Below, piece by piece: positions 24,291 to 35,739 of a stretch of 64,000 bases of DNA. The translations under genes and the position numbers were made by a program. Within the stretch, counting starts at the first letter, position 1. The number at the start of each line of letters is the position of its first letter. The stretch comes from Halohasta salina (GTDB taxonomy: Archaea > Halobacteriota > Halobacteria > Halobacteriales > Haloferacaceae): assembly GCF_024178165.1 (NCBI RefSeq), contig NZ_JAMZIE010000002.1, positions 555,902-619,901 on the forward strand, given 5' to 3'. The notes under the pieces are model-generated. The model searched no databases and was not told the DNA's origin. It saw nothing but the letters and a program-made list of their open reading frames with translations.

Positions 24291-24319
24291 ACTTACGTTC
24301 GCGTAAGTACCCTGCTTAC
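24291..24319 (+). promoter_or_regulatory. Operator copy 1 (ACTTAC-N6-GTAA-N7-GCT-N-AC)
   Basis: The first half is a perfect ACTTAC-N6-GTAAGT inverted repeat, followed by CCTGCTTAC. It lies 47 bases before the Htr start, just upstream of a TATA-like ACTTATGA, and inside the divergent region shared with the kinase operon starting at 24192. The same motif occurs at 33048 and 35711. Confidence 0.6.
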
Positions 24320-24366
24320 CCAACAGTTTGTCGGAACTTATGATAGTACGGATACGACGAAATACT

Positions 24367-26547
24367 ATGCTTGAGAGGGTGAACATAAGTGGCGCCGACT
24401 TGCGGCCGAAGATCGTCCTTGCGTTCGTCGTCGTCGCGCTTCTTGTGGGGGTAACTGGTGCGGTGGGGTACTATTCGGTGGGGACCGTCGACGACCAAGC
24501 TCATCACATTGCGGACGACGGCTACAAGATGGACGCAACGTCGGAAATGATCTTCGCGGTCGAGACACAGCAGGAGGCGATACTCCACGCCCAACTCGGC
24601 CACACCCAGCAGGCCGAACGGATGTTCACGGAGGGAGACGATCATTTCGAGGAGAAGGGCGTCGGCGCGTTCGAATCGTATGAAACGAGTGCTGCGGAGA
24701 GCCAACAGCTCTCGTCGATTAGTGAACTGCATGATGAGTACGACGCTGTCGCTGCCGAGTTCTTCGAGGCCCAAGCAGCGGGCAACACGGACCTCGCCGC
24801 GCAAAAAGCCACCGAGGCCGAAGCGATCAGTGCCGAACTCGAAACGACTGCACGAGAACTGAAAACACAGGAACAGACCGACCTCGCCCAGCAGGTCGCC
24901 AGTGCCGACGAAACGACGCGAACGGCCCAGATCGAGATGATCGGGCTGACGCTCGCAGCGTTCGTCGTTGCGATCGCTATCGGTCTCTTCGTGGCCAAAC
25001 GTCTCACTGATCCGATAACCCAACTGTCGGAGGCGGCTCTGGCCGCCAGTGAGGGAGACCTGACCGTCGACATCGATGACCACGTTGAGGACGACGAACT
25101 CGGGCGGATGGTCGACGCGTTCACCGAGATGCAGGCAAACGTGCGTGACATCTTCGCCGAACTCGAAGCCGTGAGCCGGGGGCTCGCAACCGGGAACCTC
25201 GAGCGAGACCTCGACACCGATTACCCCGGGACGTACGGACAGCTCATGATGAATCTCGACGGGGCGACTGACCAGCTTGACGACAACTTCACCGAAATCG
25301 AGCGTGCCAGTGACAACCTCAGCGACAAGAACCTCGACCAGTCCATCGAGACCGACAAACCAGGACGTTACGGTGCTGTGCTGCGGTCGCTTGACGAGGG
25401 GATTACACAACTGAGCGAGAGTCTCGCGACCGTCACAGAGATCGCTGACGACGTTGCCGAATCCAGCGAAGTGACCGCAACCAACTCCGAACGAGTCGAA
25501 GCGGCGAGCAACGAGGTTGCCGCCTCTGTCACCGAAATCCAGGCCGCAAGCGAGGAGATCGCCGACTCCGTCGAGGAGATCAGTGCCGGTGCCGACGAGC
25601 AAAACGACGACCTCCGAGGCGTAGCCAGCGAGATGAACGAGATGTCGGCGACCGTCGAAGAGATCGCCGCCTCTGCAGAAGAAGTGAGTATGACTGCCGC
25701 AACTGCTGTCGACCGCAGCCAAGCGGGCCAGCGGTCCGCTGCCGCCGCAACCGAGGAGATCACGGCCATCAAATCACAGGCCGACACGGCAGCCACACGG
25801 GTCGAAACGCTCGATGAGAAGATAGACGAGATCGGCGAGGTCGTCGACCTCATCACGGACATCGCCGAACAGACGAATCTGCTGGCGTTGAACGCCTCGA
25901 TCGAGGCCGCCCGCGCTGGCGATGCTGGCGACGGATTCGCAGTCGTCGCCGACGAAATCAAGGGCCTCGCTGAGGAAGTCGGAGCGGCTACCTCCGAGAT
26001 CGAAGCCGAGATCGAGGATATTCAGTCGACGACAGCCGAGACGGTCGAGGGGATGGAGACGATGACCGAACGCGTCGACCGGGGCTCCGAGACCATCGAG
26101 ACTGCCATCGAGATGTTCGACGAAATCGCACGCGCCGTCGGCGAGGCCGAATCCGGCGTCCAAGAGATCTCCATCGCGACCGACGACCAGGCGGCATCCT
26201 CGGAGGAAGTCGTCGCCATGGTCGACGAAGTAGCGACAGTGAGCGAACAGGCTGCAACCGAAGCTGGCACCGTCTCGGCGGCGACCGAAGAGCAAACGGC
26301 GTCGCTGTCGGAGGTCGCCGACACTGCCGCCCACCTCTCGACGCTCTCGGATGCCTCGACTGCCGAAGCGCTCGCGGAGCTTTCGAGGACGCTCCGCGAG
26401 CAGGTCGGGGCGTTCGAACTCCAACCCACGCCAGTCGACACACCGAGCACACCGCCGACGGTCGAAGCCACCGCGAGTCAGCAGCCCGCTCCGGCGGAGA
26501 CGGATGGGGGTCAGCGCCCGAGTTCCCGCCGGACCACCGACCAGTGA
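24367..26547 (+). CDS. Membrane-bound Htr/methyl-accepting transducer
   Basis: A 726-residue signal transducer. A first membrane helix (about 14-38, KIVLAFVVVALLVGVTG) and a second (about 195-217) bracket a roughly 155-residue helical extracellular sensor. A HAMP domain (AKRLTDPITQL) and a second HAMP-like linker follow, then a long coiled-coil signalling region with the conserved tip EQTNLLALNASIEAARAGD, and a Pro/Thr-rich tail. The type suits CheA/CheW coupling and methylation. No che genes are in the window. ATG at 24367 is preferred over TTG 24328 and ATG 24340 because the TATA-like box lies about 27 bases before it. It diverges from the kinase operon. Confidence 0.9.
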   Translation: MLERVNISGADLRPKIVLAFVVVALLVGVTGAVGYYSVGTVDDQAHHIADDGYKMDATSEMIFAVETQQEAILHAQLGHTQQAERMFTEGDDHFEEKGVGAFESYETSAAESQQLSSISELHDEYDAVAAEFFEAQAAGNTDLAAQKATEAEAISAELETTARELKTQEQTDLAQQVASADETTRTAQIEMIGLTLAAFVVAIAIGLFVAKRLTDPITQLSEAALAASEGDLTVDIDDHVEDDELGRMVDAFTEMQANVRDIFAELEAVSRGLATGNLERDLDTDYPGTYGQLMMNLDGATDQLDDNFTEIERASDNLSDKNLDQSIETDKPGRYGAVLRSLDEGITQLSESLATVTEIADDVAESSEVTATNSERVEAASNEVAASVTEIQAASEEIADSVEEISAGADEQNDDLRGVASEMNEMSATVEEIAASAEEVSMTAATAVDRSQAGQRSAAAATEEITAIKSQADTAATRVETLDEKIDEIGEVVDLITDIAEQTNLLALNASIEAARAGDAGDGFAVVADEIKGLAEEVGAATSEIEAEIEDIQSTTAETVEGMETMTERVDRGSETIETAIEMFDEIARAVGEAESGVQEISIATDDQAASSEEVVAMVDEVATVSEQAATEAGTVSAATEEQTASLSEVADTAAHLSTLSDASTAEALAELSRTLREQVGAFELQPTPVDTPSTPPTVEATASQQPAPAETDGGQRPSSRRTTDQ

Positions 26548-26604
26548 TCGACCCGGCGGAGAGAACGTCGACGTACCCGGTCGGGGTTGTACTCCGCTGT
26601 CGTC

Positions 26605-34854: not shown

Positions 34855-35663
34855 CCGTCGGTCGACGATCACGGTCGCGGTCCCGAAACGGGGGGCACAG
34901 TCGGGCACTGGTCCTCCTCGTCGGGCTCGCAGTTGGGCTGCTCGTCGCCGGGTTCGTGGTCGCACCCTCGACAGCGTTTACGACCGGTTCGGTCGACCGC
35001 GGAACGGCCGCCCCCGTCGTGAACGATTCGGAGGGGATCCTCGGAATCGACGTGACAGACGGCCTGCAGGCGGGCACCGAGGGCCGGCTCGTCACCGTGA
35101 CGAACAATCTCAATCGGTCGCTGAGCGTCGACGTCTCGGCGTCGGCGTCGCTGTCGAACAGCCAGGCAACGCTCGCCCCTGGTGACTCGGTGACGACGGC
35201 CGCGACCGTCAGCTGTGAGTCGCCGTCGAGCAACCTGGAGATGACGATCACTGCGAGCGCGAACGGGCAGTTCAGCGGGCTTGCGACTCGATATACGCCG
35301 GTCGACACGACCGACTGTGTGGACCCGACGCTCGCCTTTGGGACCGTCGAGATCGTCGATCAGACGACGAGCGCGCAGGGCGGGAAAGCAGAATACGCTG
35401 TCAGCTACAGTATCCAGAACGATACCGGCTCGTTCGATCGGGTGAGCGTCGACTTCGAGAACCTCGACAAGAATGACGGTGTTGCAACCGTAAGTTCGAG
35501 TGCACAGAGCGACACGATCAGCTTCACAAGCGGTGGCCAACGGTTCGGAGAGCGCTTCGAGATCACGGTTCGACTGTTCGACGACACCGGAGAGGTCCAG
35601 AGCGAACGGATCGTGATCACCGACACGGCCGACGGCAGTGGTACGATCTACCAGTCACCGTAG
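34851..35663 (+). CDS. Second secreted camelysin/TasA-like protein
   Basis: A 270-residue exported protein translated from an ATG overlapping the signal peptidase stop (ATGA). A basic RSRSRSR lead precedes a hydrophobic segment (about 18-40), then the junction STAFTTGSVDRG, which mirrors TSAFTTAQVDRQ in the 33128 protein. The mature part begins with a ligand-free beta domain (GILGIDV, then VTVTNNLNRSLSVDVS) with two Cys residues, CESPSS and DCVDP, that may form a disulfide, and a second beta domain from about residue 165. It is probably a structural partner or cap of the first protein. The exact family is not certain. Confidence 0.75.
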   Translation: MTVGRRSRSRSRNGGHSRALVLLVGLAVGLLVAGFVVAPSTAFTTGSVDRGTAAPVVNDSEGILGIDVTDGLQAGTEGRLVTVTNNLNRSLSVDVSASASLSNSQATLAPGDSVTTAATVSCESPSSNLEMTITASANGQFSGLATRYTPVDTTDCVDPTLAFGTVEIVDQTTSAQGGKAEYAVSYSIQNDTGSFDRVSVDFENLDKNDGVATVSSSAQSDTISFTSGGQRFGERFEITVRLFDDTGEVQSERIVITDTADGSGTIYQSP

Positions 35664-35710
35664 ACCGGCCGGGAGGCCGTGGCCGACTCCCGCGGCGGAA
35701 GCGTCGACCG

Positions 35711-35739
35711 ACTTACCCGGGCGTAAGTAGCCTGCTCAC
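35711..35739 (+). promoter_or_regulatory. Operator copy 3 (ACTTAC-N6-GTAA-N7-GCT-N-AC)
   Basis: Matches copy 1 at 23 of 29 bases, including the full ACTTAC-N6-GTAAGT inverted repeat and CCTGCT. It lies 82 bases before the ATG of the DUF5305-like gene and 47 bases before an in-frame-independent ATG at 35787 that opens a 12-codon frame overlapping that gene's start. Confidence 0.6.

Follow-up and report, generated by a model that had tools for sequence, protein, structure and literature searches.

The 18-bp palindrome RCTWAC-N6-GTWAGY occurs seven times in the window, which is the whole 64,000-nucleotide stretch of Halohasta salina that was analysed (contig NZ_JAMZIE010000002.1, positions 555,902 to 619,901). 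The copies lie in three intergenic regions of a cassette that joins a putative phosphorelay operon and an Htr transducer gene to predicted surface-fibre genes. They are likely bound by dimers of the HxlR-REC-HalX response regulator encoded in this cassette, which would jointly activate a fibre-like operon, a DUF5305 gene, the Htr gene and the regulator's own operon. On the comparative sequence evidence given below, this reading is assigned a probability of about 0.72. The sites, the TATA-like boxes next to them (recognized by eye) and the predicted binder are the following.

24268-24285, 24291-24308 and 24314-24331 (24268 to 24331), no strand: operator array A, three palindromes with a 23-bp period, between the REC-HxlR operon and Htr
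24338 to 24345, plus strand: TATA-like box of Htr, TTATGATA
33049-33066 and 33072-33089 (33049 to 33089), no strand: operator pair B, abutting the TATA-like box of the fibre operon
33090 to 33099, plus strand: TATA-like box of the fibre operon, directly after pair B
35711-35728 and 35734-35751 (35711 to 35751), no strand: operator pair C, upstream of DUF5305
35752 to 35763, plus strand: TATA-like stretch of DUF5305, directly after pair C
22821 to 23714, minus strand: HxlR-REC-HalX response regulator, predicted binder (Pfam HxlR 1.6e-20, Response_reg 1.2e-19, HalX 2.2e-11)

The palindromes, found with at most two mismatches, are repeated at 23 bp, as a tandem pair at each site and as a triplet before Htr. 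A sequence-only reading of the window had proposed a 29-bp operator instead, ACTTAC-N6-GTAA-N7-GCT-N-AC. Its three exact copies exist at 24291-24319, 33049-33077 and 35711-35739, the second having been placed one base off at 33048-33076. Copies 1 and 3 are indeed alike at 23 of 29 bases by direct reading, and all three are followed by TATA-like boxes, again as judged by eye. This pattern is real and goes beyond chance, although it is incomplete: it covers one palindrome and the left half of the next, which lies 23 bp further on. Comparison of two cassette copies identified the third element, GCT-N-AC, as that left half. The 29-bp unit was rejected as the whole operator because the second palindrome extends the site to 41 bp.

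A chance origin of the motif was ruled out by shuffles, permuted half-sites and controls. With up to three mismatches the 29-bp pattern has five matches in the window, two of which overlap copy 1 on the opposite strand; 100 dinucleotide shuffles of the window gave a mean of 0.22 and at most 2. The half-site RCTWAC ranked first among 360 permuted half-sites with 43 hits (next 35, median 1), and 24 of the 40 palindrome pairs lying 12-120 bp apart were spaced by exactly 23 bp. Both tests were run on eight loci that include those from which the motif was read.

The motif is neither frequent in the genome (3.04 Mb) nor unlinked to these genes. Exact palindromes number eight, seven of them inside the window cassette or a paralogous one, against three for the reversed control. 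The 29-bp pattern, searched with up to two mismatches, has a fourth exact match at C1:7598-7626, so that the earlier statement that no other full match exists holds for the window and fails for the genome. One-mismatch matches are found at C1:10279 and C1:15071, and all three C1 matches fall in the paralogous cassette. Three matches have two mismatches, one overlapping copy 1 and two elsewhere; the reversed control gave 0 and 2 matches on the respective strands.

The second cassette copy covers C1:6361-16554. Its products are 86% (regulator), 70% (receiver), 71% (Htr), 98% (fibre subunit), 88% (signal peptidase), 83% (third gene) and 94% (DUF5305) identical to those of the window. The counterpart of array A has four palindromes there, one with two mismatches, and the DUF5305 promoters of the two copies are almost the same. 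Cross-talk between the two regulators seems likely. Across the wider stretch C1:1-23000 (L010, L126), this second copy shows 70-98% identity to the window in regulator, giant kinase and fibre operon.

The eighth exact palindrome, ACTAAC-N6-GTAAGT at C19:18410-18427 (L120:9911), stands just ahead of the point where a TetR-family gene begins and lacks a partner at 23 bp. Because of these two features it is regarded as unrelated and was rejected as a member of the system; it is probably the operator of the TetR protein itself. A membrane-transporter-like open reading frame (ORF) follows the TetR-family gene.

Counted from the start codon of the fibre-subunit gene, the distal palindrome begins at -79 in 10/10 cassettes, and the proximal one at -56 in eight and at -55 in two. 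The alignment supplied the start codons, with, for G168, the ATG 3 bp away from the aligned position; G416 does not contribute to the ten, its gene lying outside the fetched stretch. In the DUF5305 promoters the pair is found at -111/-88 in 6 of 11, within 3 bp of this position in two more and at -76/-53 in two. For the DUF5305 gene of G427, the assumed start is not a start codon and the best pair has four mismatches. The proximal right half begins with GTTAG in 21 of the 22 fibre-subunit, DUF5305 and REC promoters compared and reads GTTAGC in 19. GTTAG was found in only four of the seven promoters having a pair in the later loci G416, G463, G427 and G520, and the Htr promoters are weaker at this half (GTTTGT in the window, GAAACC in C1). 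A TATA-like stretch follows the proximal right half at once or after a few bases, as seen by eye. Across eight promoters, conservation is 0.90 in the half-site columns, 0.66 in the spacers and 0.46 upstream. The B recognition element (BRE) adjoins the TATA box (PMC4390858; this and the other papers cited are drawn on in part). The operator would thus be adjacent to the expected BRE/TATA at a fixed distance, the BRE being positioned here from the TATA-like boxes.

Relatives of the regulator were sought in 392 genomes from the host's order, 170 from its family and 146 from a second family, and the closest loci were fetched. A pair was defined as two palindromes with at most two mismatches each and at most three in sum, 23 or 24 bp apart. 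Fifteen loci have a regulator more than 50% identical to that of the window (window, C1, G305, G168, G416, G416 second copy, G337, G520, G201, G253, G449, G342, G463, G427 and G410). G337 was counted by its cassette contig, its regulator contig having no pair. A Haloarcula sinaiiensis plasmid was omitted since its operator repeats that of G201. Pairs were found in 13 of the 15 loci, and in five of the seven that were fetched after the criterion had been fixed. The two loci without a pair are the second G416 copy, whose contig starts inside the regulator gene, and G449 (63%), where the regulator contains an in-frame stop, the fibre gene is gone, the cassette has decayed and one palindrome is left at -111 of DUF5305.

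Exact palindromes number 0-3 in each of 16 other genomes, which is not above the reversed control (0-7). The difference is in their placement. In the six genomes with a regulator above 50% (G305, G168, G337, G253, G201, G342), the cassette or regulator locus holds eight of nine exact palindromes, against one of nine in ten further genomes (G324, before the regulator). The 37 other fetched loci (706,891 bp) contain six pairs, one of them, in G469, before the regulator; five of the six sit in loci with regulators 43-50% identical, and this count is therefore not an independent background. G324 and G469 (L073, L147) encode sister regulators, 45-46% identical to that of the window, and have a 24-bp-spaced pair upstream of the regulator gene. 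No pair was found in G050 (50% in one comparison and 49.6% in another, placed in the 43-50% group) or in G347 (38%, L076). The Halorientalis loci L012-L015, which match the receiver-HalX part only, showed no palindromes and were not counted; L016-L018, from other phyla, stayed outside the analysis.

A further comparison sets the regulator against the targets. Twelve fibre operons without a close regulator contain no RCTWAC palindrome at one mismatch or less in 240,000 bp. Conversely, G201 has regulator and operator and is not among the fibre-subunit matches, and plasmid pHsi540 of Haloarcula sinaiiensis and G410 have both without fibre genes in the fetched stretch. Since the operator is missing from the former and present in the latter, it follows the regulator. 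Judged from these comparisons, the operator is tied to the regulator rather than to the surface genes, which supports the HxlR-REC-HalX protein as the best local candidate binder, as had been suggested from the window. The proposed link by one operator from a sensor system to a surface cassette is likewise supported, except that its Htr part is local: Halorubrum sp. Boch-26 has the same cassette with the same pairs and a GAF/PAS kinase in place of Htr.

In a midpoint-rooted tree of 36 regulators, one branch (support 97/99) separates off a set of 15 that includes all loci with at least two pairs. This set also contains G415, the second G168 copy and G364, which have long branches, a diverged helix-turn-helix (HTH) and no operators, and G427, with one pair, falls outside it. 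The presence of a pair is clustered on the tree but not cleanly so, because eight changes are needed and 9 of 500 shuffles were as low. The three diverged-HTH regulators (L074, L075 and L141, from G168 C5, G364 and G415) lie beside distant homologues of the signal peptidase and DUF5305; no palindromes were found at these loci.

Two of the twelve fibre operons mentioned above, G052 and G192, turned out to have an HxlR-REC regulator of their own, at most about 4 kb from the fibre gene and 35-38% identical. Palindromes built alike but altered in their outer part, of the type GGTWAC-N6-GTWACC (0-2 mismatches), precede both the fibre gene and DUF5305 in these genomes; 20 other loci (393,523 bp) have three such matches at one mismatch or less. 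The presumed recognition helix is changed from SAKVLTD to SNKVLSN or SNKVLAN in G052 and G192. The G192 palindrome is at the offset of the distal site elsewhere, and the DUF5305 site of both genomes is 3 bp from the usual offset. The core TWAC-N6-GTWA is found exactly, in at least one target promoter, in 12/12 operons whose locus encodes an HxlR-REC regulator and in 1/10 operons without one, there at -8 over the start region; this comparison was devised after G052 and G192 had been seen. The putative natural shift in specificity from RCTWAC to GGTWAC could help to explain how the sites are recognized.

Several observations weigh against the proposed binding and activation by the regulator. The spacing is 24 bp instead of 23 in two of the ten fibre-subunit promoters. 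G052 and G192 have no 23-bp partner, with only a GGTTAC half-site 34 bp on by direct reading. Six of the 20 loci with regulators 43-50% identical have a pair, only two of them (G324, G469) just upstream of the regulator, although many of these loci have an almost unchanged presumed recognition helix. The regulator promoter of G337 holds a single palindrome with two mismatches. G449 lacks a pair at 63% identity, though its regulator is interrupted and its cassette decayed. Finally, the counts are not independent because the operator cassettes are closer kin to each other than to most controls.

Activation is favoured since the sites lie upstream of the TATA box at a fixed distance, with parallels in GvpE and OxsR. 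For both GvpE (PMC4390858) and OxsR (PMC9426492), sites lying upstream of the BRE are linked to activation; the haloarchaeal OxsR activates genes with an upstream (5') motif and represses those with a downstream (3') motif. The same protein could also act on the same sites as a repressor, its unphosphorylated dimers covering the BRE until phosphorylation releases them. The proximal palindrome does overlap the expected BRE position and could also serve a repressor, and among bacterial HxlR/DUF24 proteins the relatives YodB and CatR act as repressors (PMC6212828, PMC8063818). HxlR itself is nevertheless a positive regulator (PMC7835342), the palindromes in the promoters compared precede the TATA-like boxes (by eye) as in OxsR-activated genes, and pairs held at a fixed distance from TATA suit an activator better, so that repression appears unlikely. 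A different DNA-binding protein of the host is very improbable. Such a protein is suggested by the similar single palindrome at the TetR gene, and binding by HxlR-REC-HalX is itself a prediction, but the operator stands before the REC-HxlR operon of Haloarcula sinaiiensis and G201 with no fibre genes in the stretch, and the palindrome changes in sequence where the HxlR domain has diverged. The product of the neighbouring ArsR gene (37096-37482) was rejected as binder: it had no match in the related stretches, matches in one further comparison being listed only from 60 bits upwards. That the sites are conserved merely by recent descent or duplication, without function, is hardly credible. The two cassettes of the genome are close paralogues with nearly identical DUF5305 promoters, but half-site conservation of 0.90 against 0.46 upstream holds across cassettes with fibre subunits down to 53% identical, and the 23-bp period recurs in different promoters.

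For activation by the HxlR-REC-HalX regulator, a mechanism can be proposed. The PAS/GAF kinases of the same operon would phosphorylate its receiver domain, as their domains suggest, and the phosphorylated dimer may bind two adjacent palindromes co-operatively. The TATA-proximal dimer, with its outer half-site GTTAGC at the expected BRE, would contact or position TFB/TBP. The array separating REC from Htr is flanked by outward-facing TATA-like boxes, so positive feedback is also proposed, by which the system would amplify the genes for its sensor and regulator. At rather less than even odds, the system may represent an undescribed class of archaeal switch in which an HxlR-type regulator uses paired 23-bp palindromes whose inner half-site replaces the BRE, driving fibres and its own phosphorelay. 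Across haloarchaea the half-site would co-evolve with the recognition helix while the promoter distance of the distal site stays fixed, and promoter activity would require docking of TFB/TBP by the phosphorylated regulator.

The genes of the predicted regulatory part are listed below.

15695 to 16831, minus strand: REC-HisKA-HATPase kinase, last gene of the putative phosphorelay operon
16824 to 17279, minus strand: second stand-alone receiver
17269 to 22821 (start approximate), minus strand: giant PAS/GAF histidine kinase, directly after the regulator and on the same strand
23725 to 24192, minus strand: stand-alone receiver-like protein (below the Pfam cut-off), first gene of the regulator operon
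24367 to 26547, plus strand: Htr transducer (HAMP, MCPsignal; the 4HB sensor match is under its cut-off)

The regulator consists of an HxlR winged helix, a receiver and HalX in that order, all above the Pfam cut-offs. In 23 sequences D164 and K211 of the receiver are invariant and D122/D123 nearly so; these are presumably the phospho-acceptor aspartate, the lysine and the acidic pair of catalysis. The receiver encoded at 23725-24192 has a glutamine at the expected phospho-acceptor position, as in several cassettes; the aspartate is retained in the receiver of the neighbouring HxlR-REC-HalX protein. A similar order of phosphorelay genes is annotated on pHsi540, the Haloarcula sinaiiensis plasmid, where a single copy of the regulator was found.

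This architecture is listed in a census of response regulators of Halobacteria, according to which DNA-binding domains are seldom present in archaeal response regulators (PMC5847659). The domain order is that of the window regulator. The part of the census drawn on here gives no DNA site or regulon and describes DNA binding or another function of HalX as undocumented, whereas candidate sites and targets are now available; the open PMC papers searched showed no DNA site for the HxlR-REC-HalX class either. With an operator, a spacing rule and target genes defined, the class is no longer a mere domain name but a testable regulon, and predicted surface fibres of archaea become connected to a phosphorelay of several kinases. 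Haloarcula sinaiiensis ATCC 33800, a named species in culture, has the operator as well.

A comparable known promoter arrangement is that of the gas-vesicle genes, where the upstream activating sequence (UAS) of GvpE also adjoins the BRE, divergent promoters carry elements on both sides and a close UAS-BRE distance is essential (PMC4390858). GvpE is leucine-zipper-like and uses one 20-nt element of two 8-nt parts, whereas the sites here comprise at least two 18-bp palindromes spaced by 23 bp, with a candidate regulator of the HxlR type. Bacterial HxlR/DUF24 proteins (HxlR, YodB, QsrR; PDB 7bzd, 5hs7, 4hqe) are winged-helix dimers, and the window HxlR domain matches these chains by sequence. 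They are one-component chemical sensors, whereas the window protein joins its HTH to a receiver and HalX, is encoded in an operon with kinases and would act on an archaeal promoter. An operator of the HxlR/DUF24 type would be a palindrome bound by a dimer; the palindrome is seen in the sequence here, with dimer binding as a prediction. HxlR of Bacillus subtilis has two tandem 25-bp sites, which is a lead rather than evidence.

The presumed targets downstream of pairs B and C are all on the plus strand.

33128 to 33718, plus strand: predicted fibre subunit, of a weakly TafE-like family; all-beta model nearest archaeal filament subunits
33784 to 34854, plus strand: archaeal signal peptidase I domain protein (TIGR02228, 54 bits, cut-off 51.85)
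34851 to 35663, plus strand: TafC-related protein (NF052521, 7.5e-12, 45 bits, far below the cut-off of 410)
35822 to 36973, plus strand: DUF5305 protein (PF17231, 6.1e-32)

The operon may be inferred to be a predicted surface-fibre operon of the tafi/AbpA-like kind. Its earlier label, camelysin/TasA-like, was not borne out. Pfam, which includes a camelysin family model, gave no camelysin match for the window subunit, and no such family is among the 25 of 27 Pfam families listed for the 18 members; the subunit's family is closer to TafE and AbpA-like archaeal fibre subunits. TasA is absent among the listed fold matches, an absence that excludes nothing. The window subunit has no NCBIfam match and hence no TafA, TafC or TafE assignment by a curated model. 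It also differs from Tafi (Tat-fimbriae, for twin-arginine translocation) in the low score of the TafC-related protein and in its N-terminus, MSQLTKTLLVAGILL, which has no RR and thus no twin-arginine motif by direct reading rather than by a Tat predictor. The fibre-subunit family is present in 35 of the 392 genomes of the order (E <= 1e-10).

Between Htr and the fibre operon, the minus strand holds a PAS/GAF kinase region (26605-33069) spread over the ORFs 26605-27705, 27733-30186, 30201-32204 and 32461-33069, which resemble a broken long kinase. At the corresponding position C1 has a different, shorter kinase.

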